From Paracoccus sediminicola (GTDB lineage: Bacteria; Pseudomonadota; Alphaproteobacteria; Rhodobacterales; Rhodobacteraceae): a stretch of DNA of 24,265 nt. Positions 1-21,159 of the stretch are shown in pieces; position 1 is the first letter of the stretch, and every line of letters begins with the position of its first letter. The DNA lies in NCBI RefSeq assembly GCF_027912835.1, contig NZ_CP115773.1, positions 1 through 24,265 of the forward strand. The letters are read 5' to 3'. A program made the translations under genes and the position numbers. The notes under the pieces are model-generated. The model made no database searches and was not told the DNA's origin. It saw only the letters and a program-made list of their open reading frames with translations.

Positions 1-111
1 AGCACGAAAGACGGTGGGTGATAACACGAAAGATGGTGTGTAAAAGCACGAATCTCTTGACCTTGGTGTGTGAAAACACGAATGTGGGCGAATGGTGGGT
101 GAAAACACGAA
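1..111 (+). repeat. Iteron array of the replication origin
   Basis: Four full 18-bp repeats of the form GGTGKGTRAAARCACGAA start at 13, 35, 65 and 94. The 3' half of a fifth, AGCACGAA, sits at 1-8; its 5' half is the last ten bases of the window. Starts are 22, 22, 30 and 29 bp apart, so they are nearly helically phased. Directly repeated sites upstream of a plasmid initiator gene are the usual RepA-binding iterons, so this is the likely oriV and repA autoregulatory region. The last iteron overlaps the ATG at 92, which argues against that ATG as the repA start. Confidence 0.9.
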
Positions 112-139
112 CTCTCGATCTCCGCTCCTGCCGGATCGG

Positions 140-1440: not shown

Positions 1441-2165
1441 GCTGCTCTCTCTTTCGTGAGAGCATGAATGACAGCCTGAGCATAATCACGGGCGTTCTCA
1501 ATGGCTCCGGCCACCTGCTTTAGGGCTTTGTCTGTAACAGATGCCGTCTTGCCTTGATGCTCGTTCGTAACGATGTCGGGCAATTCCGCCAGAAGCACCC
1601 CATCGCGAAAGATGCGGGTATAGGGCGCACGTTTTGCGATGCGGATCGGCAAAGTCGGGATGTTATTGATCTCCATCTCTTGCCGCACGTCGCGTTCATC
1701 CGTGGTTTGGAAGGCTGCGTTGGTTCGCGTGAACAGCAGCGAATATGCTATTGGTGCGCGGATCATGCTCGATGTGGTCTGCACAAGCCGAACGGCCGCA
1801 GCCGCCTGTCGAGCCTCCATGGGCGAACCGTCGAGCGGGATAACGCAAAGGTCCGTTCGGGAAAGCGCGAAGGTGACGACCTGATCTTTCGATCCTTCCA
1901 AGTCGATGATCAGATAATCAGCTTCGTCAGCAAGTTGATCAATCAGTTCTACCGTGTCCTCGGCCTGCGGCCGCGCATGAACAGCAAAAGGCACATCGCG
2001 TCCCGCCGCCTGCCTGCCTTCAGACCAAGCAAGAATGTTGGCATTTGGGTCAAGATCGAGAATGGACACCCGACCGCCCGAAAGGGCGATCTGTTCGGCA
2101 AGGAGCATGGCGGAAGTCGTTTTCCCCGACCCGCCTTTCGGGTTTGCGAAGGTGATTACGTACAT
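1437..2165 (-). CDS. parA: ParA-type partition ATPase
   Basis: This is a Walker-type partition ATPase (about 242 aa) that should move plasmid copies apart together with the small protein encoded downstream. The N-terminus carries a deviant Walker A, KGGSGKTT, at about residues 10-17, followed by a Walker A' region SILDLDPNANILAWS and a Walker B-like YLIIDLEGS. The second signature lysine/glycine (KGG) marks the ParA/MinD class. The short length with no N-terminal HTH fits the type Ib group. The frame can start at a GTG (2171) or an ATG (2165); I prefer the ATG because the protein then begins MYVITFANPKGG like its relatives. No strong ribosome site is visible. Confidence 0.88.
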   Translation of the reverse strand: MYVITFANPKGGSGKTTSAMLLAEQIALSGGRVSILDLDPNANILAWSEGRQAAGRDVPFAVHARPQAEDTVELIDQLADEADYLIIDLEGSKDQVVTFALSRTDLCVIPLDGSPMEARQAAAAVRLVQTTSSMIRAPIAYSLLFTRTNAAFQTTDERDVRQEMEINNIPTLPIRIAKRAPYTRIFRDGVLLAELPDIVTNEHQGKTASVTDKALKQVAGAIENARDYAQAVIHALTKERAA

Positions 2166-2180
2166 ACACACAACAATGGC

Positions 2181-4255: not shown

Positions 4256-4394
4256 TCACGATGACGGGCTGGTGACGCCATCGGGATAATGCATGGCAAT
4301 CGGGACGTTGTATCCGATCGCGCTATGGGGTCGGTCCTCGTTGTAGTGTCTACGCCAACCTTCCAACTTTTCGCGCGCGTCGGCAAGGCTCATG
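4256..4394 (-). pseudogene. 3' fragment of the outer IS orfB transposase
   Basis: Read on the minus strand from the CATG duplication, the sequence encodes [20 protein letters not shown] and then [11 protein letters not shown], ending in TGA at 4256-4258. That is the standard C-terminus of IS3-family OrfB. Removing the inner IS and one CATG joins it in frame to the fragment ending HWFM at 5592. The gene is therefore broken only by the insertion. Confidence 0.9.
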
Positions 4395-4433
4395 GGTAAT
4401 CCTCCCCGTTTTAACGGGGCGCGACCGTAGAAC

Positions 4434-5267
4434 TCACGCGGCCATTTTCAGCTTCATGGCGGGTGTAACGCCGCCGATGCCCATATTCGGGCGTTCGTTG
4501 TTGTAGGTCCATAGCCATTCGGTGGCGATCTGCTGCACCTCCTCGATGGTTTCAAAGATGTAGAGGTCGAGCCATTCGTGGCGGACCGTCCGGTTGTAAC
4601 GCTCGACATAGGCGTTCTGCTGCGGCTTGCCGGGCTGGATGTATGTCAGGGCGATGCCCTGCTTCTCGGCCCAGGTCATCAGCGTGGAACTGACGTATTC
4701 GGGGCCGTTGTCGACCCTGATCGCCAGGGGCTTTCCGCGCCATTCGATGATCTGGTTCAGGGAGCGGACGACCCGTTCGGCGGGCAGCGAGAAGTCGACC
4801 TCGATCCCCAGGCCCTCGCGATTGAAGTCGTCTAGCACGTTCAGAAGCCGGAATTGCCGCCCGTCGGCCAAGCGGTCCGCCATGAAATCCATCGACCAGA
4901 CCAGGTTCGGGGCATCCGGCACGGCCAGTTCCTCGGGCTTCTCGCGCTTCAGCCGTCGCCGCGGCTTGATGCGCAGGTTCAGCTCCAGTTCGCAGTAGAT
5001 CCGGTGAACCCGCTTGTGGTTCCAGACATGTCCCTTCACGTTCCGCAGGTGGAGGAAGCACAGCCCGAACCCCCACGTCTTGTGGACATTGGTCAGCCCC
5101 ACCAGCAGGTCGGCGATCATCTCGTTCTCTTCGTCGCGCCTCGGACTGTAGCGGAAACAGGTCTCGCTGACGCCGAACGCGCGACACGCCAGCGCGATGC
5201 TGACACCCTTCGTCGCCACCGCCTTCTCGGCCAACTCCCGGCGTCGAGCTGGCCGCGTCACTTTTTT
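4434..5267 (-). CDS. IS3-family transposase OrfB, copy A
   Basis: This is the catalytic DDE part of the transposase, read after -1 frameshifting at 5261-5267. After the shift it begins [17 protein letters not shown], passes through the HTH_21-like [15 protein letters not shown] region and then the integrase core. The three acidic residues are visible in [18 protein letters not shown] and [12 protein letters not shown]. The C-terminus [21 protein letters not shown] is typical. The frame is open upstream to 5441 but that part overlaps orfA and is not expected to be translated alone. Intact and probably active. Confidence 0.9.
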
Positions 5268-5521
5268 CCAAGAGCCTCTCGAAGCAGGTCGGCCTGCATG
5301 CTGAGATCGGCAAACATGCGCTTCAGCCGCCGGTTCTCGTCCTCGAGGGCCTTCATCTGGCTCATCATGGACGCATCCATGCCGCCATACTTGGCCCGCC
5401 ACTTGTAGAACGTCGCGCTGCTGATCCCATGCTCGCGGCACAGCTCGGGAACGGGCATCCCGCCCTCAGCCTGGCGCAGCACGCCCATGATCTGGGCTTC
5501 GGTGAAACGGCTCTTCTTCAT
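5258..5521 (-). CDS. IS3-family transposase OrfA, copy A
   Basis: An 87-aa HTH protein beginning [21 protein letters not shown]. The helix-turn-helix is at about residues 20-45 ([25 protein letters not shown]) and is followed by a leucine-zipper-like helix ([20 protein letters not shown]). I start at 5521 because GAGGAG lies 7 bases upstream; a second ATG at 5539 is in frame. It ends in GGA AAA AAG TGA, the slippery heptamer that lets ribosomes shift to orfB and make the fused transposase. Confidence 0.9.
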
Positions 5522-5591
5522 CGGAATCTCCTCGTCCATCCTGCCGAGAAAATTCTACTTCTGCATCCCCTTAACCATGGGGAGGATTACC

Positions 5592-6269: not shown

Positions 6270-6292
6270 GATCTCTCGCAGACGCCCAGGCT

Positions 6293-6770: not shown

Positions 6771-7688
6771 CTACATGCCGATCAGGTCGGCCATGTCGAT
6801 CGTGTTCTGCAGCAGGCGCACAACGGCAATGTCGATCATCTTGCCTTCGTAGGTCACCGCGCCCAGGCCCTTGTCCAGCGCCTCGTCATAGAGCGCCTTG
6901 ATCTCGCGCGCCCGGTCCACATCGTCCTGTGCAGGCGAGAATACCTCTTGTGCGATGGTGACTTGGCTGGGGTGTATCGCCCATTTTCCAACTGCACCCA
7001 GCATCTGCGCACGCTGGCATTCGATGCGGAACTGATCGGCGTCGGTGAAATCGGGGAAAGGTCCGTCCACCGCGTCGATGCCATTGGCCCGGCAGGCCAT
7101 GATCAGCCGGTGCCGTTGGTAGTGCCATATGTCTGCGGGGTAATCGCCCTTGCCCTCGATCTCGGCAAAGGGGACGCCCTGGCTGGCGGAATAGTCTCCG
7201 ATACCGAAGATCAGCGCCTCGAGCCGGGGGGTACAGGAGGCGATCTCGTTCACGGCGACCATGGCCTCGACCTCTTCGATCAGACATTCCAGCCCGATCT
7301 TCTTGGTCAGGCCCAGATCCGCCTCGAGCTGGCTGAGCAGCTTGTCCACAAAGAGCAGATCGGCGGGGGTGAAGGGCTTAGTCAGCATGATCACATCGAC
7401 ATTCTCGCGCGCGCCGGTGACCACCTCGATGATATCGCCGTAGCAATAGGGTGTGCCGGTGTCGTTGATGCGCACGCAGCGCGTGGTGCGGCCAAAGTCG
7501 AGCGTATTCAGCGCCTCGACCACCATGCCGCGCGCCTCTTTCTTGCGGTTCGGGGCCACGGCGTCCTCAAGATCGAGAAAGACGTAGTCGAGGTCCATTC
7601 CGGCGGCCTTGCGCATCATCTTTTCGGAGCTTCCGGGCACGGAGAGCTGGCAGCGCCGCAGGCGCTTCGGGCGGGTGGTGTTCTTCAT
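6771..7688 (-). CDS. CitE/HpcH-HpaI-family CoA-ester lyase (malyl/citramalyl-CoA lyase type)
   Basis: A 305-aa TIM-barrel lyase of the CitE-like group, which cleaves (or forms) malyl-CoA, citramalyl-CoA or methylmalyl-CoA esters by a Mg-dependent retro-aldol reaction. Signatures are LSVPGSSEKMMRKA (N-term), FLDLEDAVAP (39-46), the substrate arginine in CVRIND (R73), the metal ligand in IGLECLIEE (E138) and the second ligand in IFGIGDYSASQG (D165). It is the last gene of the operon, 9 bp after the CoA-transferase stop, with a GGAGA ribosome site. In this context it should release a short acyl-CoA plus a 2-oxo acid from the hydrated intermediate. Exact substrate unknown. Confidence 0.85.
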   Translation of the reverse strand: MKNTTRPKRLRRCQLSVPGSSEKMMRKAAGMDLDYVFLDLEDAVAPNRKKEARGMVVEALNTLDFGRTTRCVRINDTGTPYCYGDIIEVVTGARENVDVIMLTKPFTPADLLFVDKLLSQLEADLGLTKKIGLECLIEEVEAMVAVNEIASCTPRLEALIFGIGDYSASQGVPFAEIEGKGDYPADIWHYQRHRLIMACRANGIDAVDGPFPDFTDADQFRIECQRAQMLGAVGKWAIHPSQVTIAQEVFSPAQDDVDRAREIKALYDEALDKGLGAVTYEGKMIDIAVVRLLQNTIDMADLIGM

Positions 7689-7697
7689 TGGGGTCTC

Positions 7698-8927
7698 CTA
7701 GGCGACCACGCCCGAGGCGTGGAGTTCGGTAATGTCGTCGGGTCCGAAGCCGATTTCGGCCAGGACCCGGTCGGTATGTTCGCCCAGCAGCGGGCTGCGG
7801 TTGCGCACGCCGCCGGGGGTTTCGAGCAGGTGGATCGGCGTGTTCACGATCTGCACCTCGCGGCCGCCGGGACCGGGCTGATCGACGGTGGCCAGCATGT
7901 TGCGCGCGGCGACATGGGGATCGGTGACGATGTCGCCCGCGCGGTTCACCGGTCCGAGGGGGATACGCCCGCCGAGCCGCTCCATGATCTGCTGCTTGGA
8001 CAGCCGCGCGGTCCAGTCGCGAACCAGCGCCTCGGTCCGGGCGCGGTGTTTCACCCGGTCTTCGTTGGTGCGGAACCTGGGATCGGTGGCAAGGGCGGGC
8101 TGGCCCATCTCTTCGGCCAGGATCGCCCAGAAGTGATCGCGCGGGCAGCCGATGGCGACATGGCCGTCGGTGGTGGGGAACAGGCCGAAGGGGCAGAGCA
8201 GCGGGTGGCTCGATCCCTCGGGGCCGGGGTTCTCGTCGAAATACGAGTTCTGGTAGACGATGCGTTCACAGACGGCGAGGACCGAGTCGTACATGCCCAC
8301 GTCGACGAACTGGCTTTCGCCGGTGGCGCGGGCCCGGTGCAGCGCGGCCAGTACCCCGGTCGCCAGAAAGAGCGAGGGCACGGTGTCGCCGATCCCGGCG
8401 CCGATCTTGGTCGGCGCGCCCCCCGCCAGACCGGTGATCCCCATGATGCCGCCCATGGCCTGGGCGACCACGTCAAAGGCGGGCCAGTCGGCATAGGGGC
8501 TGCGGCCGGTCCGCGCGTCGCCAAAGCCGCGGATGCAACCATAGACCAGACCGGGTCTGATCGCGCTGAGGTCCTCGTAGGACAGGCCCAGACGATCCAT
8601 CACCCCGGCGCGGAAATTCTCGACCACGATGTCGGACTGCGCGGCGAGACGGCGGACGATCTCTTTGCCCCCGGCCGACTTGAGATCGATGACGATGGAT
8701 TCCTTGTTGCGGTTGATCGACTGGAAATAGCCGCCGAACCCCTTGGGATCGTCATTGCCGGGCAGGCGGGCCGAGGGGCGGACCATGTCGCCCTCGGCGG
8801 ATTCGACCTTGATGATGCGGGCTCCGAGATCGCCCAGCACCATGGTGGCAAAGGGACCGGCCAGCATCGCGGTAAGGTCCAGAACAGTGATGCCGTCCAG
8901 CGGTCCAGCGGGGGCCGTGTCGCTCAT
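7698..8927 (-). CDS. Class III (CaiB/BaiF) CoA-transferase
   Basis: A 409-aa family III CoA-transferase. The N-terminus GPLDGITVLDLTAMLAGPFATMVLGDLGA and KVES are hallmark, and the catalytic aspartate is in WPAFDVVAQAMGG (D152). These enzymes pass CoA from one acid to another through an aspartyl-CoA intermediate. Its start overlaps the upstream MaoC gene by 4 bp. It most likely activates the imported acid using a recycled acyl-CoA as donor. Relatives include itaconate, mesaconate and citramalate CoA-transferases, but sequence alone does not fix the substrate. Confidence 0.88.
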   Translation of the reverse strand: MSDTAPAGPLDGITVLDLTAMLAGPFATMVLGDLGARIIKVESAEGDMVRPSARLPGNDDPKGFGGYFQSINRNKESIVIDLKSAGGKEIVRRLAAQSDIVVENFRAGVMDRLGLSYEDLSAIRPGLVYGCIRGFGDARTGRSPYADWPAFDVVAQAMGGIMGITGLAGGAPTKIGAGIGDTVPSLFLATGVLAALHRARATGESQFVDVGMYDSVLAVCERIVYQNSYFDENPGPEGSSHPLLCPFGLFPTTDGHVAIGCPRDHFWAILAEEMGQPALATDPRFRTNEDRVKHRARTEALVRDWTARLSKQQIMERLGGRIPLGPVNRAGDIVTDPHVAARNMLATVDQPGPGGREVQIVNTPIHLLETPGGVRNRSPLLGEHTDRVLAEIGFGPDDITELHASGVVA

Positions 8928-9415
8928 GCCGCCACCCGGCGGCGGATCAGCACGGTCCGTTCCAGTTCGCAGACCAGCTTGTCCTGCTGGTTGATGCCAT
9001 AGTGCTTGAACCGGATGATCCCGGCGTCCGCCCTGTTGGCATCGCGTTTTTCCAGCACCTCGGTAAAGGCATAGAGCGTATCGCCATGATGCACCGGGGT
9101 GCGGAGCCGGATGGCATCCATGCCCAGTTCGGCGATCACCTGTTCGCCGGTGTCCTGCGCGGCCAGCCCGACCACCAGCGAAAAGTTCAGCCCGCCATAG
9201 ACCACGCGGGTATCGAACCCCGCGACGCCCTTGAAGGCGTCCTTCATGAAGTCCTCGTTGAAATGGGCGTGGGCGGTGTTCATCACCAGATTGGTCAGCA
9301 GCACATTGTCCATCTCGGTCATGGTCTTGCCGCGGGCGTGGCGGATCACCTCGCCGGGTTCGAAATCCTCGAAATAGGTATCGCGCGAGGTCAGGTCAGA
9401 GGGGGTCATAAACAT
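8924..9415 (-). CDS. MaoC-family hydratase (second copy)
   Basis: A 163-aa single hot-dog-fold protein (YFEDFEPGEVIRHARGKTMTEMDN start, then VVYGGLNFSLVVGLAAQD). At the place of the usual MaoC GDxNPxH active site it reads MNTAHAH, keeping a histidine (H51) but having Asn46 where the Asp normally is. This resembles the itaconyl/mesaconyl-CoA hydratase branch more than the (R)-enoyl-CoA hydratases (recalled pattern). It lies 4 bp after the acyl-CoA dehydrogenase and overlaps the CoA-transferase by 4 bp. A second in-frame ATG at 9409 could be the real start. Probable role: hydrating the unsaturated acyl-CoA before the lyase step. Confidence 0.8.
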   Translation of the reverse strand: MFMTPSDLTSRDTYFEDFEPGEVIRHARGKTMTEMDNVLLTNLVMNTAHAHFNEDFMKDAFKGVAGFDTRVVYGGLNFSLVVGLAAQDTGEQVIAELGMDAIRLRTPVHHGDTLYAFTEVLEKRDANRADAGIIRFKHYGINQQDKLVCELERTVLIRRRVAA

Positions 9416-9419
9416 GGTA

Positions 9420-10655
9420 TCACCCGTAGGTCTTGGAATAGGCGTTGCGGGCGATCTGCTTGTCGATCTCGGAGCGGCCCAGCAGGTTGTCCGAAATGAT
9501 CCGCTGCTGGATCTCCGAGGTGCCCTCGAAGATCTTGGTCAGCCGCGCGTCGCGCCAGTGGCGTTCAACTGCAAAGAGTTTCGTATAGCCCGCGCCGCCA
9601 TGGATCTGCAGCGATTCCGAGGTCACCTCTTCGGCGATCTCGGAGGCGAAATATTTCACCATCGAGGATTCGGTATCGCAGCGCTTGCCCAGGTCGATCT
9701 GGGTGCAGACATGATAGAGCAGCTGGCGCGCGGCCTCGATCTTGGTGGCCATGGTGGCGATCTTGAAGCGGATCGCCTGGAATTCCGCGATCGGCACGGC
9801 GAATTGGCGTCGGTCCCTGGCGTAGGCAATGGCATCGTCCAGAGCGCCCTGCGCCAGTCCGATGGAGCGCGCAGCGGTATGGGCGCGGGCGGTTTCCAGC
9901 CCGGCGGCCATCATGTAGAACGCCTTGCCCTCGTCGCCGATCATTGCTCTGGCCGGGACGCGGCAGCCATCGAACGACAGCTCAAACGTGTTCCAGCCGA
10001 AATAGCCGATCTTGGGGATCGGCGCGCCGCTGCAGTTCGCGGGCAGTTCGCCGCGCGGTTTCTCGACCAGAAAGGCCGAGATGCCCAAATGGCGCTTGTC
10101 GGCGGCGGGCGGTGGCGAGGTGCGGGCAAAGACCAGGATGGCATCGGCGCCATCGGCGAAGGTGCACCAGTATTTCTGACCCGAGATCAGCCAGTCCTCA
10201 CCGTCCTTGACCGCACGGCAGGCAATCGAGGACAGGTCGGACCCGGTGTTCGGCTCGGACAGGGCATAGGCCACCAGCATGTCGCCCGAGGCGCTGCGCG
10301 ACAGAAGTTCCTGGCGTCGCGGATGATCCTTGCGCAGCCCCTCCTTGTAGAACGTGCCGTTGCCACGCGCGATGAGCGAGGCGACCGACATCCAGCCGCG
10401 CGCCAGCTCTTCGGCGACGAGGCAGTATTCAAAGGCGCCGAGGCCCTGACCGCCTTCGTCCTCGGGGACGGTGATGCCGAAGAGGCCCAGATCGGCCATC
10501 TTGGTGATCAGCTCGGGCGGGATGGTGCCGTGTTCAGGATCGAGCCGGTTGGCAGCGGGCAGCACCTCGTTCCGGGTAAAGTCCCGTGCAAGGTCGCGGA
10601 TCATCAGGCGTTCTTCGGTGAGGTAGCCCTGGTTGGGGGTCAGCGGTTCGGTCAT
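9420..10655 (-). CDS. Acyl-CoA dehydrogenase
   Basis: A 411-aa FAD enzyme of the acyl-CoA dehydrogenase family. It has the N-terminal helical domain, the flavin-site motif YALSEPNTGSD (130-140), GQKYWCTFADGAD, and the C-terminal IHGGAGYTKLFAVERHWRDARLTKIFEGTSEIQ, with the catalytic base at E377. It oxidises a saturated acyl-CoA to the 2,3-enoyl-CoA and passes electrons to ETF. Its ATG overlaps the upstream MaoC stop by 4 bp. Length is that of short/branched-chain or glutaryl/succinyl-type enzymes and is shorter than the methylsuccinyl-CoA dehydrogenases. Specificity cannot be read from the sequence. Confidence 0.9.
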   Translation of the reverse strand: MTEPLTPNQGYLTEERLMIRDLARDFTRNEVLPAANRLDPEHGTIPPELITKMADLGLFGITVPEDEGGQGLGAFEYCLVAEELARGWMSVASLIARGNGTFYKEGLRKDHPRRQELLSRSASGDMLVAYALSEPNTGSDLSSIACRAVKDGEDWLISGQKYWCTFADGADAILVFARTSPPPAADKRHLGISAFLVEKPRGELPANCSGAPIPKIGYFGWNTFELSFDGCRVPARAMIGDEGKAFYMMAAGLETARAHTAARSIGLAQGALDDAIAYARDRRQFAVPIAEFQAIRFKIATMATKIEAARQLLYHVCTQIDLGKRCDTESSMVKYFASEIAEEVTSESLQIHGGAGYTKLFAVERHWRDARLTKIFEGTSEIQQRIISDNLLGRSEIDKQIARNAYSKTYG

Positions 10656-11146
10656 GGTCTCTTCCTCACGAGATTGGCGCGTTCAAAGTCGATCACCGGC
10701 GCGCCGGTTTCATCCAGCCCGGTGGTTGCCCAGGTGACGATGCCGTAGTCCGGGCGGCTTTTCGGTTCCCGCCGGTCGATCACGCGGGACCGGGCATAGA
10801 CGGTTTCCCCCACGATCACCGGCCGGTGGTGGGTCATCTTGTCGACGCCAAGAAAGGGGCCGCCGATTTCCGACAGATCCTCGACCGAGAGGCCAAAGAT
10901 CGTGTTGAACACCAGAAGCGGGCAGACCACCGCCCCGGCATGACCCTGGGCGCGGGCGAAATCGGCGTTGGTATAGATCGGGTTGTAGTGCAGGGTCAGC
11001 GTGGTGAAGACGGTATTGTCCGCCTCGGTCAGCGTCCGCCCCCAGTGATGGACAAAGGTCTGATCCAGCGCAAAGTCCTCGTAATAGTGTCCGCGGTGCC
11101 ACGTCCGGGCGCGCGATTTGAGATCGGTGACGATGGTGTCCGTCAT
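10652..11146 (-). CDS. MaoC-family protein (first copy), atypical active site
   Basis: A 164-aa hot-dog protein: WHRGHYYEDFALDQTFVHHWGRTLTEADN, then HAGAVVCPLLVFNTIFGLSVEDLS. Where MaoC hydratases normally have GDxNPxH, this one has LHYNPIY, so the catalytic Asp and His are replaced by His53 and Tyr58. The ATG at 11146 overlaps the PrpD-like stop by 4 bp and has GGAGG seven bases upstream; the frame is open further upstream but that part is PrpD shadow. It may pair with the second MaoC protein as a heteromer, or have a different chemistry. Confidence 0.8.
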   Translation of the reverse strand: MTDTIVTDLKSRARTWHRGHYYEDFALDQTFVHHWGRTLTEADNTVFTTLTLHYNPIYTNADFARAQGHAGAVVCPLLVFNTIFGLSVEDLSEIGGPFLGVDKMTHHRPVIVGETVYARSRVIDRREPKSRPDYGIVTWATTGLDETGAPVIDFERANLVRKRP

Positions 11147-12486
11147 CTTGTTGCCTCCAACAGCTGTTTCACCGGGGCGTCTTGCTCGATGAGGGTGATG
11201 ATGCGGCCGGCGCGCCCCGGTCCGAGGACCGGGTCGATGATGCGGCCGGCCTTGTCGCAGAGCGCCTGCCACTGCGCATCGGTGTCCGTTTCCGGGACGC
11301 CGGTGTCGAATTCGACCTCGGCCGTGCGCCCGTCGGTCAGCTGCGCCGAGACCCGAGACCACATCAGCGCCGAGGCGGGAACATCCTCTCCGATCACGCG
11401 GACGCGGTTGCGCAAGGCCTGCATCGCTTCGGTCCGGGCATGGTCCACGTCATAGGCGCCGAGATCGGCGGTATCGGTCCGGGACAGGACCATGGCTGCG
11501 ATGTGGCGCAGGCTGAACTTGCATTCGAGATCCGTGGCGGGGTCGTCGATGTTGCACGACCCCAGAATGGCATTGGGCACATGCAGGGTCAGGCGATCGA
11601 TGCCGTCCGCACCGTGATCGGCGACCAGCACCTGGATGCATTCGATGGCGGCATGGGTCAGGTAACAGGCGGCGTGGCGTTTAAAGAGTGTCTGTTCCAC
11701 CGCAAAGACACCCTGCGGCGCGGGATCAAAGACCGGCGCGGCGGGGTTCAGGCCATGGGCCTGCAGAAAGCCCTGCGCAGATTCGATGGCGTCTGGATAG
11801 GCGCTCAGCCCGTTGGCGACCAACCGCGTGGCAAGGTATCCGGCCTGCGCCGCCGCGCCTACCTGCACCGGCTTGGTCATCGTGCCGAACATCGATTTGA
11901 GCCCTGCCGCCCGCGCCGCCGCGACGCCGAGCGCATGGGCGGTCTGATCCTCCGTGAACCGGTCCAGCGCGGCAAGCGCCGCCGCACTGCCGAAGGTGCC
12001 GATGGTGGCGGTGTTGTGGAACCCCTGCGCATAGTGATCGGCCCCGATCATCGCACCGAGCCGCGCCGCGACCTCGTAACCGCGCACCAGCGCGTCGAGC
12101 ACCGGCCCGACCGGCAGATCGCGGGTCTCGGCGCGGGTCAGCAGGGCGGGCAGCACGGCGACGGTCGGATGGCCGACCATGGCGGAATTGACATCGTCGT
12201 AATCCAGCGCATGCCCCGCCGCACCGTTGACCAGAACCGCCCAGGCCGGGCTGATGCGGTCATTATGCCCGACCACCGAGGCCGCGCCGGTGGCGTCTTC
12301 GCGTGCGGTGGCGAGGGTCGCGGCAACCAGCGGTTCGCTGCGCGCCGCGATGGTGACGGCGGTCCAGTCCAGCAGGCAGTGCCGTGCCCAGGTCAGGGCC
12401 GATGGTCCGACCGGCAGGCTGTCGGCCCGGCCGATCCAGTCGGCGACCGATCGGGTCAGCGGCAGCGGGGGTGTGTCAGCGTCCAT
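11143..12486 (-). CDS. MmgE/PrpD-family protein
   Basis: A 447-aa member of the MmgE/PrpD family, which includes 2-methylcitrate dehydratase, cis-aconitate decarboxylase and some epimerases/isomerases. Visible signatures are HALDYDDVN with HPTVAVLPALL (92-115), YEVAARLGAMIG, and HNTATIGTFGSAAAAAAL-like helix (here HNTATIGTFGSAAALAAL). The start overlaps the dctM end by 11 bp. In this operon it could dehydrate, decarboxylate or isomerise the imported acid before or after CoA activation. The family spans several reactions, so I do not name one. Confidence 0.82.
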   Translation of the reverse strand: MDADTPPLPLTRSVADWIGRADSLPVGPSALTWARHCLLDWTAVTIAARSEPLVAATLATAREDATGAASVVGHNDRISPAWAVLVNGAAGHALDYDDVNSAMVGHPTVAVLPALLTRAETRDLPVGPVLDALVRGYEVAARLGAMIGADHYAQGFHNTATIGTFGSAAALAALDRFTEDQTAHALGVAAARAAGLKSMFGTMTKPVQVGAAAQAGYLATRLVANGLSAYPDAIESAQGFLQAHGLNPAAPVFDPAPQGVFAVEQTLFKRHAACYLTHAAIECIQVLVADHGADGIDRLTLHVPNAILGSCNIDDPATDLECKFSLRHIAAMVLSRTDTADLGAYDVDHARTEAMQALRNRVRVIGEDVPASALMWSRVSAQLTDGRTAEVEFDTGVPETDTDAQWQALCDKAGRIIDPVLGPGRAGRIITLIEQDAPVKQLLEATR

Positions 12487-13756
12487 AGAACATCTCCGGC
12501 AGGAACAGCGAGAGTTGCGGGATGAAGGTGACCATGGCGAGAAGCACCAGTAGCAGGGCGATGAACGGCAGGACCCCGCGCGCCACCCGGTCGACCGGCG
12601 CGCCGGTGGTCGAGGCCATGATGAAAAGGTTCAGCCCGACCGGTGGCGTCAGCAGCGCGATCTCCATGTTGACCACGATGATCACCGCGAAATGCATCGG
12701 GTCGATCCCGAGCGGCGCAAGCAGCGGCAGCACCAGCGGCACCACGATCAGGATCACCGCGATGGTTTCGAGGAACATCCCCAGCATGAACATCACCAGG
12801 TTGATCAGCAGCAGGAAGTGCCAGGCCGAAAGCTCGTTCTCGGTCACGTAGTCGACCATCTGCCGCGCGAAACCTTCCGAGGTGATCCAGTGCCCGAAGG
12901 CGAGCGCCCCGATGGTGATAAAGAAGATCACCGCCGTGGCCTGTATCGCATCGGCCAGGATGCGGGGAAGCTCGGACATGGTGCAGCCCTTGTAGAAGAC
13001 GACCGAGACGACGATCGAGACAAAGGCGGCCATGCCGGCGGCTTCGTTGACCGTGACCAGGCCGCTGTAGATCCCGCCGAGGATGATCAGCGGCAGCAGC
13101 ATCGCGGGCAGGGCGCGGCGGTTGACGGCCCAGAATTCGGCCCGGCTCATGGTTGAACCGGCGGCATAGCCCCGTCGACGCGAGACATAGATGATCCAAG
13201 CCGCAAAGATGCCGACCTGCAGCATGCCGGGGATCACCCCCGCGAGAAACAGCTGCGGCACGCTTTCCCCGGCGACCACGGCAAAGAGGATCATCGCCAG
13301 TGAGGGCGGGATCAGGATGCCGAGCGTCCCCGAAGAAGCCACAACCCCGAGCGCGAACTTTTCGTCATAGCCGGTGTCGCGCATGGCCGGGACCAGCAGC
13401 GTCCCCATGGCCATAGCGGTGGCAACCGACGAGCCGGAGATCGCCGAAAAGACCATCGTGGCCAGCACGCAGACCAGGGCAATGCCGCCGCGCACGCCGC
13501 CGATCCAGCTATAGGCGAAATCGACCAGCGCCTTGGCGATGCCACCCCGCTGCATGAAGGTCGCGGCGATCACGAAGAAGGGCACCGAGACCAGCGTGTC
13601 GGATTTCAGGTGGTCGATAAAGAGCTGCGGCAGGGCGACCATAGGACGGCCTTCGGCGGCAAAGAGCACCAGCGAGACGATCCCGAGAACGAGGAAGACG
13701 GGAAAGCCTGCGACCAGCAGGGCGAGAAACCCGGAAAGGGCGGCGATCGGGGACAT
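12476..13756 (-). CDS. dctM: TRAP transporter large permease DctM
   Basis: A 426-aa polytopic membrane protein, the ion-coupled transport subunit. It starts MSPIAALSGFLALLVAGFPVF at 13756, overlapping the dctQ stop by one base (TGATG); the open frame extends upstream only as dctQ shadow. Typical DctM motifs are PFFVIAATFMQRGGIAKAL, FSAISGSSVATAMAMGTLLVPAM, GTLGILIPPSLAMILFAVVAGES and LLTPPVGLNLFIMAS. About 11-12 hydrophobic segments are visible. Works with the small permease and binding protein encoded upstream. Confidence 0.93.
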   Translation of the reverse strand: MSPIAALSGFLALLVAGFPVFLVLGIVSLVLFAAEGRPMVALPQLFIDHLKSDTLVSVPFFVIAATFMQRGGIAKALVDFAYSWIGGVRGGIALVCVLATMVFSAISGSSVATAMAMGTLLVPAMRDTGYDEKFALGVVASSGTLGILIPPSLAMILFAVVAGESVPQLFLAGVIPGMLQVGIFAAWIIYVSRRRGYAAGSTMSRAEFWAVNRRALPAMLLPLIILGGIYSGLVTVNEAAGMAAFVSIVVSVVFYKGCTMSELPRILADAIQATAVIFFITIGALAFGHWITSEGFARQMVDYVTENELSAWHFLLLINLVMFMLGMFLETIAVILIVVPLVLPLLAPLGIDPMHFAVIIVVNMEIALLTPPVGLNLFIMASTTGAPVDRVARGVLPFIALLLVLLAMVTFIPQLSLFLPEMFYGR

Positions 13757-14301
13757 CAGAGACCCTCCTGCACGGCGGGGGACCCGGCGGATTGCTGATG
13801 CCCGGCCTCCGAAGGATAGGGATCGGCGCCGCGAAAGATGACCTGCCACAGCAGCAGCGCATAACGCAGCGCCATCGAGGCAAAGGCTAGCGGCACGACG
13901 ATATAGAAGATCCATTGCGGGAACTGCAGCGAGCTGTCCGAGCGGATGTCGATCATGCGGGCAAAGGCGACCATGTCGATGCCATAGCGCGCGACGATGC
14001 CGCAATAGACCAGACCCGCGATCAGCGAGGCCACGTCGGCGGTCCGGCGCACTGCATCGGGCACCATGCGGATGAACAGATCAGCGCGGACGTGACGCCC
14101 CTGGGTCACAAGGGACCCGCCGCCGATCAGCACGGCGCTGACAATGAGGTAGATGATCACCTCGCCGCCCCAGTCCGTCAGCATCGACGGCACCAGGTAG
14201 CGGGCCAGCGCCTCGTAGACGACTAGAAGGATCGCCACGCCTGCGACACAGCCCATGACAAGGGTTTCAAAGCGGCTCAGCGCTTTCACTATTCGGTTCA
14301 T
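13756..14301 (-). CDS. dctQ: TRAP transporter small permease DctQ
   Basis: A 181-aa protein with four hydrophobic segments (about 15-33, 45-63, 88-105 and 128-150), the DctQ layout. Sequence includes WGGEVIIYLIVSAVLIGGGSLVTQGRHVRADLF, with the family's conserved RHVRVD-type turn. It precedes dctM with a 1-bp overlap and follows dctP across a 64-bp gap containing a hairpin. GGAAG lies ahead of the ATG. Confidence 0.9.
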   Translation of the reverse strand: MNRIVKALSRFETLVMGCVAGVAILLVVYEALARYLVPSMLTDWGGEVIIYLIVSAVLIGGGSLVTQGRHVRADLFIRMVPDAVRRTADVASLIAGLVYCGIVARYGIDMVAFARMIDIRSDSSLQFPQWIFYIVVPLAFASMALRYALLLWQVIFRGADPYPSEAGHQQSAGSPAVQEGL

Positions 14302-14334
14302 CGGTCGCTTCCATCAGCCAGAGTGCATCGGTGT

Positions 14335-14358
14335 CCGCAGCCCCCTTCGGGGCTGCGG
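14335..14358. promoter_or_regulatory. Intercistronic hairpin between dctP and dctQ
   Basis: CCGCAGCCCC-CTTC-GGGGCTGCGG is a perfect 10-bp stem with a 4-base loop and no following T-run. It sits just after the dctP stop. Such hairpins after the binding-protein gene protect the upstream mRNA or partly attenuate, so that the binding protein is made in excess over the permeases. Inferred from position and structure. Confidence 0.65.
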
Positions 14359-14365
14359 CGCGCGT

Positions 14366-15364
14366 TCACTCGGCGAGGTCTTTCTGCGCCGTTGCGACGA
14401 TCGCGGGATCGACCCGCAGTTCTTCGGCCAGACGGTCCTGATCGGCCATGAGATCGGCACGCAGCGCATCGAGGTCGGCTTCGGCCGCCGAGATGTTCGT
14501 CATCCCGTGGCTCGCCGCCTCTTCTGCCGCCTTGGCCTGAGCTTCGGCTGCGGCCTCGCGGGCCTCGGCCACACCTTCGTTCCAGGTGGTGCGCATGATC
14601 TCTTGCAGATCGGCGGGCAGGTCATTCCAGGCCTTGGCGCTGACCAAGGGAACGTATTGATAAAAGGCGTGATAATCGGAATAGGAGTGCTTCAACCCGC
14701 TGTCCCACAGCTTGGCCGAACGCACCGATTCAAACGTGCTCATCAGGCCGTCGATGGTGCCCTTTTGCAGCGCCTGCGGTACATCGGGGAAGGGGATCGA
14801 GACGCCAGTCGCGCCAAATTTCTCGAACCGGGCGACGACCACCGCGCCGCCGGGAGACCGCATCTTGAGCCCCTTGATGTCCTCGGGCACCTCGACTGCG
14901 GTTTCGGTAAAGAACATCGCGCCAAAGCCGAGGTCCATCCAGTTGCCCAGAACGACGACGCCCAGCTTTTCCTCGGTCTCTTTCGCCAGCGCGGCACCGG
15001 TTTCGCCGTCGGTGGCCTTGTACTGATCCTCACGCGGGAGGCCGTAGAACATCGGCAGGCCGAGCACGTTGTAATCGGGCACGATGCGGGCAAGGTTCCA
15101 GTGACCGGGCATCGCCATGTCGATGGCACCCTGAGCGAGCGCGGTGGTCACGTCGCGGTCGTTATACTGCGACCCGCCTTCGAAGAAGTTGAACTTGAGC
15201 CGCCCCTCCGAGGCCTCTTCGATCTTTTTGGCGATGTCGTGCACCAGAACGTTGCGCAGGTGCGTCGGTCCGGTATCGAGCGACACGTCGATGGTATGGT
15301 CCTGCGCGGCAACCGATGCGGCCGACACGATAGCGGCCAGCGCCGCCGAAGCGAATAGTTTCAT
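14366..15364 (-). CDS. dctP: TRAP transporter solute-binding protein DctP
   Basis: A 332-aa periplasmic binding protein. A signal peptide is evident (MKLFASAALAAIVSAASVAA, cleavage near residue 20-21). The ligand-binding core GLKMRSPGGAVVVARFEKFGATGVSIPFPDVPQAL contains the conserved arginine R169 that salt-bridges carboxylate ligands in this family. It ends with a helical, alanine-rich region. GGGAGG precedes the ATG. First gene of the catabolic operon, downstream of lysR. The ligand is expected to be an organic acid. Confidence 0.93.
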   Translation of the reverse strand: MKLFASAALAAIVSAASVAAQDHTIDVSLDTGPTHLRNVLVHDIAKKIEEASEGRLKFNFFEGGSQYNDRDVTTALAQGAIDMAMPGHWNLARIVPDYNVLGLPMFYGLPREDQYKATDGETGAALAKETEEKLGVVVLGNWMDLGFGAMFFTETAVEVPEDIKGLKMRSPGGAVVVARFEKFGATGVSIPFPDVPQALQKGTIDGLMSTFESVRSAKLWDSGLKHSYSDYHAFYQYVPLVSAKAWNDLPADLQEIMRTTWNEGVAEAREAAAEAQAKAAEEAASHGMTNISAAEADLDALRADLMADQDRLAEELRVDPAIVATAQKDLAE

Positions 15365-15379
15365 GTTTCCTCCCTTGCG

Positions 15380-15501
15380 TCTTCCTCGGACGCGATGCAG
15401 TCCTCCACTGACCTGCGCCGATCTCAGGATAATATCCGGCAGGGAAGTAATTTGAACTGAATAATAATCAATCTGTTGTCAGTCAAAATAACTATCAGAT
15501 T
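15380..15501 (-). promoter_or_regulatory. Promoter/LysR-operator region of the catabolic operon
   Basis: The 140 bp between lysR and dctP is AT-rich, unlike its surroundings. It holds AATCTG (15470-15475) and CAGATT (15496-15501) as inverted arms, and TAATAATCAA-like stretches that could serve as promoter elements. LysR-type regulators bind dyads of this kind. Because lysR is on the same strand as the operon rather than divergent, regulation may be from this gap alone. Confidence 0.5.
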
Positions 15502-15504
15502 GCT

Positions 15505-16431
15505 TCATCCGGTCTGAATTCGATCCAGAATGTCATTGTGCAGCCGGGGCAGGGCCTCGCGGATATGGGCCACAAGATCGGCTGCGGCAGTGCTGAGCTG
15601 GCGGTTCGGATAGGTCACGATGCCGAGCGCGTTGTAAAGGACCGGATCGGCAATCGCGATGGCCTTGACCCCCGGTCCGCGGCAGCGGCTGGCGATCAGC
15701 CCGGTCACGATGATCGGCGAAGCGCCCTGTTCGACAAACCCCAGCAGGGTCGAGACGTCGCGCACCCGAATGCCCGGCGGCATCGGTTTCCCGGCATGGC
15801 GCAGCTCAAGCTCGACATGCCCGAAGAACGAGGATTCGCCCTTGAGGATCATGAAGTCGTGCTGCGCAACCTCGGTCCAGTCCAGGGCCTGAGCGGCAAA
15901 CAGGGGGTCCGACCTCGGCACGGCGGCGACAATCGGATCGTCGATCAGGTGGTCGAAGTTCAGGTTAGAGCCGGGGGCAGGCCGCGTGCCGATGCCGAAT
16001 TCGACAACCTGCTCTTCGACCAGCCGGTGAACGATGGTGCCGTGCCCGTCCTGCAGATCGAACCGGCAGGCGGGAAAGCGGTCGTGGAAATCGGCCAGCA
16101 TCTGTGACAGGACCGATCCGGCGACACTGGTCACGCTGGCAAAGCGGATCGTGGTCGACCGGTTGCCGGACATGGTCATGGCCACCGTTTCAAAGGCATC
16201 GAATTCCCGCAGCAGCTGCTCGGCACGGGGGAACAACTCTTCTCCGGCCGGACTCAGGCGCACCATGTGGGTGGTCCGCTCAAACAGCGGCTCGCCGATC
16301 AGCTCTTCCATCTTCTTGATCCGCCGGGTGATCGCCGGAGAGGTCACCAGAAGCTTGTCCGCCGCCAGTGAAAAGCTGCGCGTGCGGGCGATTTCGCGAA
16401 AGGCACGGAGGTCATCAATGGAAATTGTCAC
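15505..16431 (-). CDS. LysR-type transcriptional regulator
   Basis: A 308-aa LTTR. The N-terminal winged HTH is MTISIDDLRAFREIARTRSFSLAADKLLVTSPAITRRIKKMEELIGEPLFER (about residues 1-52, with the recognition helix around 28-45), then a linker helix and a two-lobed effector-binding domain (from about residue 92). It lies immediately upstream of the operon on the same strand, so it is the likely activator sensing the substrate or a pathway intermediate. Its own promoter must lie in the 98 bp up to IS copy B, which could also drive it. Confidence 0.9.
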   Translation of the reverse strand: MTISIDDLRAFREIARTRSFSLAADKLLVTSPAITRRIKKMEELIGEPLFERTTHMVRLSPAGEELFPRAEQLLREFDAFETVAMTMSGNRSTTIRFASVTSVAGSVLSQMLADFHDRFPACRFDLQDGHGTIVHRLVEEQVVEFGIGTRPAPGSNLNFDHLIDDPIVAAVPRSDPLFAAQALDWTEVAQHDFMILKGESSFFGHVELELRHAGKPMPPGIRVRDVSTLLGFVEQGASPIIVTGLIASRCRGPGVKAIAIADPVLYNALGIVTYPNRQLSTAAADLVAHIREALPRLHNDILDRIQTG

Positions 16432-16599
16432 TGCATAAACCCTGCCAATGCGGGACGCGATTTATCTAGGGGCGACATTCAGAACATCGCCCATCCTCTC
16501 AGGTACTGTAACTGAAAATTCGGCTGGCCGGTAATCCTCCCCATGGTTAAGGGGATGCAGAAGTAGAATTTTCTCGGCAGGATGGACGAGGAGATTCCG

Positions 16600-16863
16600 A
16601 TGAAGAAGAGCCGTTTCACCGAAGCCCAGATCATGGGCGTGCTGCGCCAGGCTGAGGGCGGGATGCCCGTTCCCGAGCTGTGCCGCGAGCATGGGATCAG
16701 CAGCGCGACGTTCTACAAGTGGCGGGCCAAGTATGGCGGCATGGATGCGTCCATGATGAGCCAGATGAAGGCCCTCGAGGACGAGAACCGGCGGCTGAAG
16801 CGCATGTTTGCCGATCTCAGCATGCAGGCCGACCTGCTTCGAGAGGCTCTTGGAAAAAAGTGA
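16600..16863 (+). CDS. IS3-family transposase OrfA, copy B
   Basis: Identical to OrfA of copy A: 87 aa from the ATG at 16600 behind [28 protein letters not shown] and a leucine-rich coiled helix. It ends GGA AAA AAG TGA, and the A AAA AAG heptamer at 16854-16860 is the frameshift signal. Confidence 0.9.
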
Positions 16864-17687
16864 CGCGGCCAGCTCGACGCCGGGAGTTGGCCGAGAAGGC
16901 GGTGGCGACGAAGGGTGTCAGCATCGCGCTGGCGTGTCGCGCGTTCGGCGTCAGCGAGACCTGTTTCCGCTACAGTCCGAGGCGCGACGAAGAGAACGAG
17001 ATGATCGCCGACCTGCTGGTGGGGCTGACCAATGTCCACAAGACGTGGGGGTTCGGGCTGTGCTTCCTCCACCTGCGGAACGTGAAGGGACATGTCTGGA
17101 ACCACAAGCGGGTTCACCGGATCTACTGCGAACTGGAGCTGAACCTGCGCATCAAGCCGCGGCGACGGCTGAAGCGCGAGAAGCCCGAGGAACTGGCCGT
17201 GCCGGATGCCCCGAACCTGGTCTGGTCGATGGATTTCATGGCGGACCGCTTGGCCGACGGGCGGCAATTCCGGCTTCTGAACGTGCTAGACGACTTCAAT
17301 CGCGAGGGCCTGGGGATCGAGGTCGACTTCTCGCTGCCCGCCGAACGGGTCGTCCGCTCCCTGAACCAGATCATCGAATGGCGCGGAAAGCCCCTGGCGA
17401 TCAGGGTCGACAACGGCCCCGAATACGTCAGTTCCACGCTGATGACCTGGGCCGAGAAGCAGGGCATCGCCCTGACATACATCCAGCCCGGCAAGCCGCA
17501 GCAGAACGCCTATGTCGAGCGTTACAACCGGACGGTCCGCCACGAATGGCTCGACCTCTACATCTTTGAAACCATCGAGGAGGTGCAGCAGATCGCCACC
17601 GAATGGCTATGGACCTACAACAACGAACGCCCGAATATGGGCATCGGCGGCGTTACACCCGCCATGAAGCTGAAAATGGCCGCGTGA
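16854..17687 (+). CDS. IS3-family transposase OrfB, copy B
   Basis: Read in the -1 frame after the slippery site. Identical to copy A OrfB, with the DDE residues in [18 protein letters not shown] and [10 protein letters not shown], and a complete C-terminus. The frame is open from 16680 but the upstream part overlaps orfA. Intact, so either copy can mobilise both. Confidence 0.9.
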
Positions 17688-17797
17688 GTTCTACGGTCGC
17701 GCCCCGTTAAAACGGGGAGGATTACCCGGGCAGAAGATCGCTGGCCAAAAATTAAAGGCATGTGTAGCATCAGATCAAACGAATATCTGGTAGAAAA

Positions 17798-18388: not shown

Positions 18389-18398
18389 CGGACGAAAG

Positions 18399-19688: not shown

Positions 19689-20975
19689 TCACAGGCTGTG
19701 ACCTTCGCCACGATCCCTGTCCCGCGTGTTTTCATTCTCGTCGTCACCGCGGTCCTGTTCGCGCTCATCCTCGATCTCCAGCCGCTCGCGCGGCTTGTTC
19801 AGCACGTCCTTTAGGCGCTCGTTGACGGATGGCTTGCGCGCCTCGCGCCCTGTGTCCTCGCCCAGACCATACTCGCTGTGACCGTCCAGCTTGTGAACCG
19901 CCGCCTGACCGTCGCGCCCGCCGTCCTTCTCCATGATTTCCTTCAGCCGCTCGCGCGCGTAATTGCGACCTTCCGGCTTCGGCGTGTCGTCCTGCTCTTC
20001 TGACCGGCCCACGACGCGCGCCAACCGCTCCCGGAAGTCATCCGGGTTTCGGTCGCGATCTTTCGCGGTCGCGGCCCTGAGCGCCGCCAGACCGGCAGAG
20101 ACGCGGCCCTGCCGGGCCTCGCGCTCGATGCCGTAGGTCTCGCGCGCCAGTTCCAGCCGCGCGCGCATTTCGCGGAACGCGGCGCGGGCTTGGCGCGCGG
20201 CATGGACCACGGCCCCGCGTTCGGTGACAGGTTTGTATTCCCGGCCCTGGCGCTCGGCCATCCACTTCGCCCGCCGCTCCATGGAATTGGCCGCCGGTCC
20301 CAGCTTCAGCTCGGGGTCGCGGTCCAGCTCCTCAGCGGACAGCTTGTCGCCACGCTCCTGCGCGGCGTCACGCTGCTTCTCAAGCGACCGATGATCGACG
20401 CGCTCCACCTCCCCTGCCCGCTCCAATGCGCGGTTCTGCAGCTCGGCCCAAAGCCCGCGCATCTGCTCGATCTCGACGCCGCCGGTCTTGGCGGAATCGA
20501 GAACGCGCGTCTTGGTCGTAAAGCCTTCGGCTTCCAGCTTGCGGGTGGAGGTCAGGACGTGGGCGTGATGGTTGCGCTGATCGCCTTCCCGGTGCGGTGC
20601 GTGGATCGCCACATCGACGGCCACGCCATAGCGGTTGACCAGCTCCTGGGCGAAGTCGCGGGTGATCTGCGAGCGGTCCTCGTCGCTGATCTCGGACGGC
20701 AGCGCCAGCTCCCATTCGCGGGCGGTGACGGAATTGCGGCGGGTCTCGCTGGCCTCAACCTCGTTCCAGAGACGGGAGCGATCCGTGGCCCAGTCCGGGG
20801 CGTCTTTCGGTGCCAGGATGAAGGTCTCCTCGATGCCCTGCTTGCGGGTGTAATCGTGGACACGGCCTTCCCTCTGGCACTCGATGCGCTCGCCGACACG
20901 GTAGGCTGCTGCCGCCGTGGCAGAGCGCCCGGCGCTGCGTTTGATCGTCTTCACGGAGAGGTGGTAGCTGGCCAT
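19689..20975 (-). CDS. mobA: MobA/MobL (MobQ-type) relaxase
   Basis: A 428-aa relaxase starting MASYHLSVKTIKRSAGRSATAAAAYR, where Y25 is the likely nicking tyrosine and the S-rich N-terminus is typical of MobA/TraA. The metal-binding histidines are in IHAPHREGDQRNHHAHVL (H125, H128, H136-H139). The remainder from about residue 190 is charged and coiled (LEKQRDAAQERGDKLSAEEL), ending in a very acidic/basic tail; there is no helicase or primase domain. It nicks the oriT upstream and leads the strand into a T4SS. The start at 20975 is preferred over the 21005 ATG from homology to relatives. Confidence 0.9.
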   Translation of the reverse strand: MASYHLSVKTIKRSAGRSATAAAAYRVGERIECQREGRVHDYTRKQGIEETFILAPKDAPDWATDRSRLWNEVEASETRRNSVTAREWELALPSEISDEDRSQITRDFAQELVNRYGVAVDVAIHAPHREGDQRNHHAHVLTSTRKLEAEGFTTKTRVLDSAKTGGVEIEQMRGLWAELQNRALERAGEVERVDHRSLEKQRDAAQERGDKLSAEELDRDPELKLGPAANSMERRAKWMAERQGREYKPVTERGAVVHAARQARAAFREMRARLELARETYGIEREARQGRVSAGLAALRAATAKDRDRNPDDFRERLARVVGRSEEQDDTPKPEGRNYARERLKEIMEKDGGRDGQAAVHKLDGHSEYGLGEDTGREARKPSVNERLKDVLNKPRERLEIEDEREQDRGDDENENTRDRDRGEGHSL

Positions 20976-21159
20976 GCCCCCTCCCCTCGCCCGGGACGCG
21001 AACACGACCGCGCGCCGCTGCTGAGCCGGATCAACGCCCCGACATGGGACACCGGGTCAGCCGTCTTTTTCCCGAAGGCCTGCGCCCCACAACGCTGGGG
21101 CCGGAGGGGAAAAGACAGCCCGGACGAAGGGGTGCAGCGCACCTCTGAGGCGCGGGCTT

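Follow-up and report, generated by a model that had tools for sequence, protein, structure and literature searches.

Operon organization and predicted pathway

Which compound is degraded by the products of a closely packed operon in Paracoccus sediminicola, and by what route? The operon lies in the window analyzed here, a stretch of 24,265 bases that is the entire contig C6 (NZ_CP115773.1) of a 3.53-Mb genome assembly (GCF_027912835.1; seven contigs, 99.99% complete). Its nine genes fill positions 15364 to 6771 of the minus strand and follow a LysR gene on the same strand, the full order being LysR, DctP, DctQ, DctM, MmgE/PrpD, MaoC1, acyl-coenzyme A (CoA) dehydrogenase, MaoC2, class III CoA-transferase, and CitE-type lyase. 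An earlier note on this DNA had named these families, their order, and tight gene overlaps, and the Pfam matches and gene junctions bear this out, with all genes on one strand: neighboring genes overlap by 1, 11, 4, 4, and 4 bases or are separated by 9, 10, and, between DctP and DctQ, 64 bases. Minor corrections of gene starts follow the annotation of relatives: 13756 for DctM (not 14005), 11146 for MaoC1 (not 11362), and 9409 for MaoC2 (not 9415). The chemistry proposed in that note, with import, CoA transfer, oxidation, hydration, and retro-aldol cleavage to an acyl-CoA plus a 2-oxo acid, fits the families found.

This is probably a self-contained operon, spread by horizontal transfer, that degrades a small 2-substituted succinate, whatever the substituent, through C1-CoA esters; that methylsuccinate itself is the substrate is a more tentative proposal. 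The tripartite ATP-independent periplasmic (TRAP) transporter would import the 2-substituted succinate, the PrpD protein would epimerize C2 of the free acid, and the CoA-transferase would move CoA from succinyl-CoA onto the C1 carboxyl. The flavin dehydrogenase would then form an enoyl ester of the mesaconyl-C1-CoA type, MaoC1 and MaoC2 acting as one split hydratase would give an ester of the beta-methylmalyl-CoA type, and the lyase would split this to glyoxylate plus an acyl-CoA (propionyl-CoA if the substituent is methyl), not to acetyl-CoA plus pyruvate. Host enzymes would convert glyoxylate to malate by malate synthase G, and propionyl-CoA would enter the methylcitrate cycle. Each reaction, the reaction order, the C1 position, and the substrate are predictions. 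They draw on what can be read in the DNA: enzyme families and lineages, conserved active-site residues, recurrence of the module, and the genes of the host.

Evidence from the individual enzymes

MaoC1 (10652..11146, minus strand, as are all operon genes below) and MaoC2 (8924..9409) cover separate halves of the mesaconyl-CoA hydratase profile PF19315 (positions 9-167 and 223-352) and are predicted to correspond to the N- and C-terminal parts of a mesaconyl-C1-CoA hydratase. For the M. extorquens enzyme, whose structure is solved, Asn226 and His231 are the proposed catalytic pair, and the side chains of Ser79 and Arg142 bind malic acid (PMC10164722). MaoC2 residues Asn44 and His49 align with Asn226 and His231 of 8hgn and are kept in 71/71 rows, and at the MaoC1 carboxylate site, aligned to the same structure, Ser92 is present in 68/68 rows and Arg156 in 67/68. 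The residues expected of a mesaconyl-C1-CoA hydratase, Asn/His in the C-terminal hot-dog domain and Ser/Arg in the N-terminal one, are thus all present, split over two proteins. Most MaoC hydratases have Asp in place of this catalytic Asn, and MaoC1, inspected by eye, is without the usual Asp/His motif of MaoC hydratases. The MaoC1 site of Phe71 is Phe in 53 of 68 rows, and Asn85, a backbone contact, is replaced by Phe in all 68. We infer that MaoC1 and MaoC2 combine into a single heteromeric enzyme that hydrates C1-CoA esters of the fumaryl type.

The lyase (6771..7688) resembles malyl-/beta-methylmalyl-CoA lyases (Mcl), which are its nearest solved relatives (5ugr and 4l9y, 242 and 238 bits); entries labeled "acyl-CoA lyase beta chain" score 42 bits. 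In a tree of 44 rows that includes the window lyase and 22 of the 85 other module lyases, these 23 form one clade (99/97) that is sister to 11 Rhodobacterales Mcl (99/99 for the pair) and lies apart from three (S)-citramalyl-CoA lyases (Ccl) and seven neighboring second lyases, with a long-branch warning for two of the Ccl and some of the second lyases. In Mcl, a Pro and a Trp are linked to disfavoring pyruvate, and an invariant Ala to space for the propionyl methyl (PMC3832036). Assigned by motif and a 26-residue spacing after that description, the glyoxylate-side residues Pro210 and Trp236 are found in 86/86 module rows (the window lyase and all 85 others), 11/11 Mcl, and 0/3 Ccl. The 80 loci were found partly via the pattern VGKWAIHP, one of two scan patterns, so that Trp236 is partly selected for. 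Seven lyase rows of alignment A1 that were not obtained via this pattern also have Trp236. By enzyme lineage and lyase pocket, the 2-oxo acid is more likely glyoxylate than pyruvate. The second CitE-type lyases, encoded near the module in seven loci (L022, L024, L027, L031, L033, L043, and L089), form a clade of their own, in which the acyl-pocket residue is Asn and the Trp is replaced by Thr or Ser in 7/7 rows.

The CoA-transferase (7698..8927; PF02515) is nearest to succinyl-CoA:mesaconate CoA-transferase (Mct). Its best NCBIfam model is NF041294, built for the haloarchaeal enzyme, at 410 bits; the cut-off of 700 bits is not reached, though this is the best model by 137 bits. NCBIfam models were run on the CoA-transferases of three module clusters and one control, and NF041294 is the best in all three clusters, with 410 (window), 488 (Tistrella), and 454 (Variovorax) bits and next-best scores of 274, 291, and 274; the Ict-type control, from the Paracoccaceae plasmid locus La6, scores 202 bits and prefers another model. 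Haloarchaeal Mct attaches CoA to mesaconate at C1 exclusively; its kcat/KM is higher with methylsuccinate than with mesaconate, though its authors view methylsuccinate as a nonphysiological substrate there (PMC5592240).

The MmgE/PrpD-family protein (11143..12486; PF03972/PF19305) is a predicted C2 epimerase of 2-substituted succinate. At seven positions of the methylsuccinate isomerase, it has His, Asp (for Glu), His, Tyr, His, Lys, and Lys in 50/50 rows, the Pseudomonas aeruginosa numbering being transferred via the Cupriavidus necator protein, in which all seven residues matched. The position of Glu91 is also Asp in the La6 protein, and the Tyr of two-base epimerases is present in 50/50 rows. 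Among 120 PrpD relatives listed from the protein database, five are at least 70% identical. A role as 2-methylcitrate dehydratase is rejected, with 35 bits versus a cut-off of 950 (the host's own PrpD scores 927). The acyl-CoA dehydrogenase (9420..10655; PF00441/02770/02771), the predicted oxidant of a 2-substituted succinyl-CoA, would require a saturated succinate as substrate. Of the "reduced or hydroxylated" dicarboxylate suggested earlier, the reduced form is therefore favored, but not a hydroxylated one or 2-methylcitrate, given this expected requirement of the dehydrogenase and the epimerase Tyr of PrpD.

The transporter comprises the solute receptor DctP (14366..15364; PF03480, 167 bits), the small permease DctQ (13756..14301; PF04290), and the large permease DctM (12476..13756, with corrected start; PF06808, and TIGR00786 above cut-off). 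DctP matches 98 distinct sequences of solved structures, every one distant (the nearest chains are 4ovs at 92.6 and 4oan at 91.2 bits), and no ligand is assigned from them. The LysR-type regulator (15505..16431; Pfam LysR_substrate and HTH_1) lies upstream, co-oriented and not divergent, and would presumably control the operon. The intergenic region between LysR and DctP (15365..15504) contains an inverted repeat, CAATCTG-N20-CAGATTG, that is a possible LysR site. A conserved LysR box is rejected, as this is a single inverted repeat in the window and is changed in the related loci L002 and L003.

Distribution of the module

The module is widespread. A scan of genome contigs, from which we consider the best 80 loci of a longer set, shows both MaoC genes in 60, the CoA-transferase in 56, the dehydrogenase in 55, PrpD in 44, and a TRAP transporter in 4; both MaoC genes, the CoA-transferase, and the dehydrogenase occur together in 45 loci and all six enzymes in 36. 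These counts use identity thresholds of 45% (MaoC and CoA-transferase), 55% (dehydrogenase), and 35% (PrpD), and a gene is counted wherever it lies in the fetched stretch, adjacent or not, with some contigs ending within the locus. Loci with most or all of the module genes are found in Alpha-, Beta-, and Gammaproteobacteria, Actinobacteria, an Anaerolinea metagenome-assembled genome, and a Halomarina plasmid. The search for the same gene order proposed in the earlier note succeeds on Tistrella plasmid pTM1, where the order is the same from lyase to DctP and an IclR gene, not LysR, adjoins; in Variovorax, all six enzymes are encoded together with an ATP-binding cassette (ABC) transporter.

The neighbors of the relatives, called with our own codon score, include mixed transporters, IclR regulators, TctC receptors, and some PtlE-like monooxygenases, and no one substrate is indicated by them. 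PtlE-like Baeyer-Villiger monooxygenases are encoded beside relatives of the lyase in six loci (L012, L016, L017, L036, L050, and L064), and the two tested score 783 and 657 bits to NF045818, under its cut-off of 1100; these neighbors hint at cyclic-ketone or terpenoid breakdown upstream. C. necator SHC 2-3 (L033/L112 and L115) carries the module despite the statement that methylsuccinyl-C1-CoA is a dead end, which is made for the C. necator studied in PMC12290011.

Comparison with known pathways

The set of roles is already known. The Ict-Ich-Mcd-Msi-Ccl cluster (P. aeruginosa PA0878-PA0886, C. necator, and Paraburkholderia xenovorans) likewise combines a CoA-transferase, hydratase, dehydrogenase, PrpD isomerase, and CitE-type lyase, as does the plasmid operon; the P. 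aeruginosa cluster further has a dicarboxylate transporter of its own, PA0884-PA0886, which are TRAP proteins. Pseudomonas putida given PA0878-PA0886, with PA0884-PA0886 as the transporter, grows on itaconate, methylsuccinate, (S)-citramalate, and mesaconate (PMC9875883), strain KT2440 of that species being without the published cluster (PMC9875883), and the PrpD protein of the published itaconate/methylsuccinate cluster is a methylsuccinate isomerase (PMC12290011). Since that cluster already includes a dehydrogenase and a PrpD protein, the two genes that had seemed unusual in the Paracoccus operon are explained by role. The suggestion that no named pathway has exactly this order stands for gene order and enzyme lineages, but not for the set of roles, which is that of the characterized Pseudomonas/Cupriavidus cluster, filled here by enzymes that are not orthologous.

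Three C4-type references were compared: the Paracoccaceae plasmid (La6; L015), C. necator SHC 2-3 (L115), and the host chromosome (L117), the C. necator locus being taken as the published cluster by inference from its gene set in a strain that is apparently not that of PMC12290011. The window CoA-transferase is 32-33% identical to the three reference Ict proteins (50-54% among themselves), the dehydrogenase is 29-32% identical to the methylsuccinyl-C4-CoA dehydrogenases (71-75% mutually), and the lyase is 26-31% identical to Ccl (44-53% mutually). The MaoC1 and MaoC2 queries match neither reference Ich of the P. aeruginosa/C. necator type at an E value of 1e-6, and the La6 Ich is a 274-amino-acid FAS1_DH-like protein with a Pfam match unlike those of the window MaoC proteins. 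The plasmid operon thus differs from the C4-type cluster in its nonorthologous enzymes, two-subunit MaoC hydratase, Mcl-type lyase, gene order, and location on a plasmid between insertion sequence (IS) copies, and the predicted route has C1 esters and glyoxylate in place of C4 esters and pyruvate.

Parts of the predicted route resemble two other pathways. The lower half of the haloarchaeal methylaspartate cycle (Mct-Mch-Mcl) shares the CoA-transferase lineage, the mesaconyl-C1-CoA hydratase type, and the glyoxylate-forming lyase step with the plasmid operon, but it is anaplerotic, starts from mesaconate, has a single two-domain Mch, and is without a dehydrogenase or PrpD. The lower half of the ethylmalonyl-CoA pathway, from methylsuccinyl-C1-CoA to propionyl-CoA and glyoxylate, has the same predicted intermediates and hydratase active site, with lyases in the sister clade; unlike it, the plasmid operon is coupled to import and CoA transfer, and the host has no Ccr, second Mch, or second Mcl. 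The Yersinia pestis-type RipABC itaconate operon shares the MaoC (RipB) and CitE-type (RipC) families, but in NCBIfam the window proteins score 103-104 bits versus a cut-off of 340 for RipB and 151 versus 375 for RipC, and this candidate is rejected; the three-gene type, as outlined in PMC12290011, has no dehydrogenase or PrpD.

No description of the module was found among the titles and abstract openings listed from the open-access literature, and an earlier description is possible. If the prediction is correct, bacteria have built one five-role scheme for branched dicarboxylates twice, from different enzymes and with different end products, and the module could be a source of C1-specific enzymes for synthetic pathways. 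The prediction also offers testable reactions for a gene set of Proteobacteria, Actinobacteria, and one haloarchaeon that is known on plasmid records by family names only.

Host metabolism and identity of the substrate

The host chromosome carries a C4-type Mcd-Ict-Ich-Ccl set (contig C1, 2528831-2532823) and, about 18 kb away, a PrpD-family protein gene (contig C1, 2509837-2511156) whose product is 47% identical to that of La6 and 33% to the C. necator protein; by its enzyme lineages, the plasmid operon is a second, independent set. In the host genome, no Ccr scores above cut-off (best 81.7 versus 378.55 bits), there is no PF19315 protein besides those of the window, and the only other match to the lyase is the chromosomal Ccl, with no other Mcl-like protein. 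If the proposed functions hold, without the mobile island the host would have neither a hydratase of the mesaconyl-C1-CoA type nor an Mcl-type lyase. At an E value of 1e-60, the lyase is matched in 271 of the 295 genomes of the host's family, and among the matches listed only that of the window is more than 48% identical. Malate synthase G is present (1023 bits, above cut-off), as are prpB and prpC (both above cut-offs) with PrpD just below (927 versus 950) at one locus, so that the host could metabolize glyoxylate as well as propionyl-CoA; methylmalonyl-CoA mutase has no match in the host.

Several points weigh against a C1 route from methylsuccinate to propionyl-CoA and glyoxylate. No NCBIfam equivalog cut-off is reached by any of the six enzymes, and the argument is one of lineage, not identity; identity between PrpD and the protein that occupies the Msi position in C. 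necator is only 30%. Enzymes of these types can be promiscuous, as haloarchaeal Mch accepts the C4 ester weakly (PMC5592240) and Rhodobacter sphaeroides Mcl also makes citramalyl-CoA given a large excess of pyruvate (PMC3832036). The lyase occurs with neither MaoC in 17 of the 80 loci, in part at contig ends. A C4-type set is present in the host and, beside the module, in C. necator SHC 2-3, and the presence of both sets in one genome argues against redundancy and hence against methylsuccinate as the sole substrate. Finally, the acyl-pocket residue 164 is Gly in 86/86 module lyases and Ala in the 11 Mcl, and residue 139, after the metal-binding Glu, is Glu in 86/86 and Ser or Thr in the 11 Mcl; with Gly164 and Glu139 in all module lyases, the acyl product may differ from propionyl-CoA.

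These residues leave room for another acid degraded by the same C1 route, namely a larger or functionalized 2-substituted succinate (e.g., an alkyl-, aryl-, or carboxymethylsuccinate) that would give R-CH2-CO-CoA plus glyoxylate. Larger 2-substituted succinates are products of anaerobic hydrocarbon degraders or of terpenoid breakdown. We regard such a substrate, which falls within the C1 route that we favor, as unlikely though worth considering: the exchange of Ala for Gly at the residue limiting the Mcl acyl pocket, whose role is described in PMC3832036, and of Ser/Thr for Glu beside the metal Glu speak for it, as do the coexistence of C4 methylsuccinate set and module in two genomes and the PtlE-like monooxygenases, hydrolases, and dehydrogenases near some relatives. 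Moreover, both MaoC genes occur without a CoA-transferase above threshold in the fetched stretch of 8 of 60 loci, as if the module there received CoA esters from ring cleavage. However, Glu139 may occupy the space opened by Gly164, and the closest characterized homologues of three of the enzymes use C5 methyl compounds. It is similarly doubtful that the module represents an undescribed and widespread aerobic pathway for 2-alkyl- and 2-arylsuccinates larger than methylsuccinate, yielding glyoxylate and R-CH2-CO-CoA by means of a heteromeric hydratase and a lyase acyl pocket opened by Gly164, and spread by plasmids among marine Rhodobacterales.

A rather improbable alternative is that the plasmid operon runs the published C4-type itaconate/methylsuccinate route, with C4 esters and pyruvate. 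Its role set equals that of PA0878-PA0886 and of the five-gene C. necator cluster, and Mcl-type lyases are able to handle citramalyl-CoA, but the lack of orthology to three C4-type sets, the MaoC queries without a match to the reference Ich, the C4 set already on the host chromosome, and a lyase pocket of the glyoxylate type rather than that of Ccl all argue against it. Very improbable is a module that handles an intracellular CoA ester, such as 2-methylsuccinyl-C1-CoA from thiolysis of 4-methyl-3-oxoadipyl-CoA in methylaromatic degradation, with the transporter incidental: that thiolysis yields methylsuccinyl-CoA (PMC6449761), its C1 position presumably following from the chemistry, but a related TRAP transporter lies beside the module in Tistrella and in 4/80 loci, TctC, major facilitator superfamily, and ABC transporters are near other relatives, and no aromatic-degradation gene is among the identified open reading frames (ORFs) of the window.

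Mobility of the operon

The operon is very likely plasmid-borne, as the earlier note had claimed, because it is on a separate small contig that also codes for a RepA replication initiator (92..1132, plus strand; PF10134, 286 bits), a ParA-type partition ATPase (1437..2171, minus), a MobA/MobL relaxase (19689..21005, minus; PF03389, 200 bits), and a TraG/VirD4-type coupling protein (21906..23558, plus; PF02534, 280 bits). A terminal repeat indicating circularity was sought in the contig and none was found. About 9.7 kb including the operon recurs at 98.9% DNA identity on a 17.8-kb Paracoccus plasmid, with homology stopping at 16463, and at 93.5% on Pseudosulfitobacter plasmids, where homology begins immediately beyond the lyase (6749) and extends to 16529, the base adjoining the right IS copy; the sources given for the Pseudosulfitobacter plasmids are diatoms from surface seawater. 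At least 80% of the query is covered by 31 of 41 matching nucleotide records, and recurrence of the region on other plasmids indicates that the gene grouping is not due to chance.

Two IS3-type copies bracket the operon, a left copy at 4394..5591 (minus; transposase ORF 4434-5441, flanks CAT/CAT, 97.3% identical to an IS annotated as ISPam3) and a right copy at 16530..17727 (plus; transposase ORF 16680-17687, without matching flanks). They are each 1,198 bp long, 100% identical, inverted, and 10,938 nucleotides apart, and the island that they enclose looks like a composite transposon. The outer flanks of the pair differ (CAT versus GGG), no target-site duplication around the whole bracketed unit was found, and transposition by both copies as one unit is thus unsupported. 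The left copy has probably interrupted an older IS3-type element at about 4155-6641 (transposase fragment 5571-6269), which relatives match in two or three pieces.

Comparison with the Pseudosulfitobacter copy gives ratios of nonsynonymous to synonymous substitution rates (dN/dS) of 0.00-0.21 for the nine structural genes (LysR, which differs in length, is left out), by which the operon is under purifying selection. Values of dS are 0.05-0.08 from the CoA-transferase to DctQ and 0.38-0.42 in the lyase and DctP, and this pattern, high at both ends and low between, suggests recombination inside the island.

Other genes on the contig

Outside the island, the contig codes for KwaB of the Kiwa anti-phage system (18399-19328, plus; PADLOC 368 bits, Pfam 81 bits). 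A 172-amino-acid ORF (17902-18420, plus) that overlaps the start of the KwaB gene has no match in Pfam or PADLOC; its position just before the KwaB gene is presumably that of KwaA. Between the partition gene and the older IS element are genes for a ParE-type toxin (2247-2549, minus), a WGR-domain protein (2906-3208, minus), and a serine resolvase (3147-3719, minus), and the block 2262-3799 matches, at 82% identity, Dinoroseobacter shibae plasmids in which a ParD antitoxin is annotated there.

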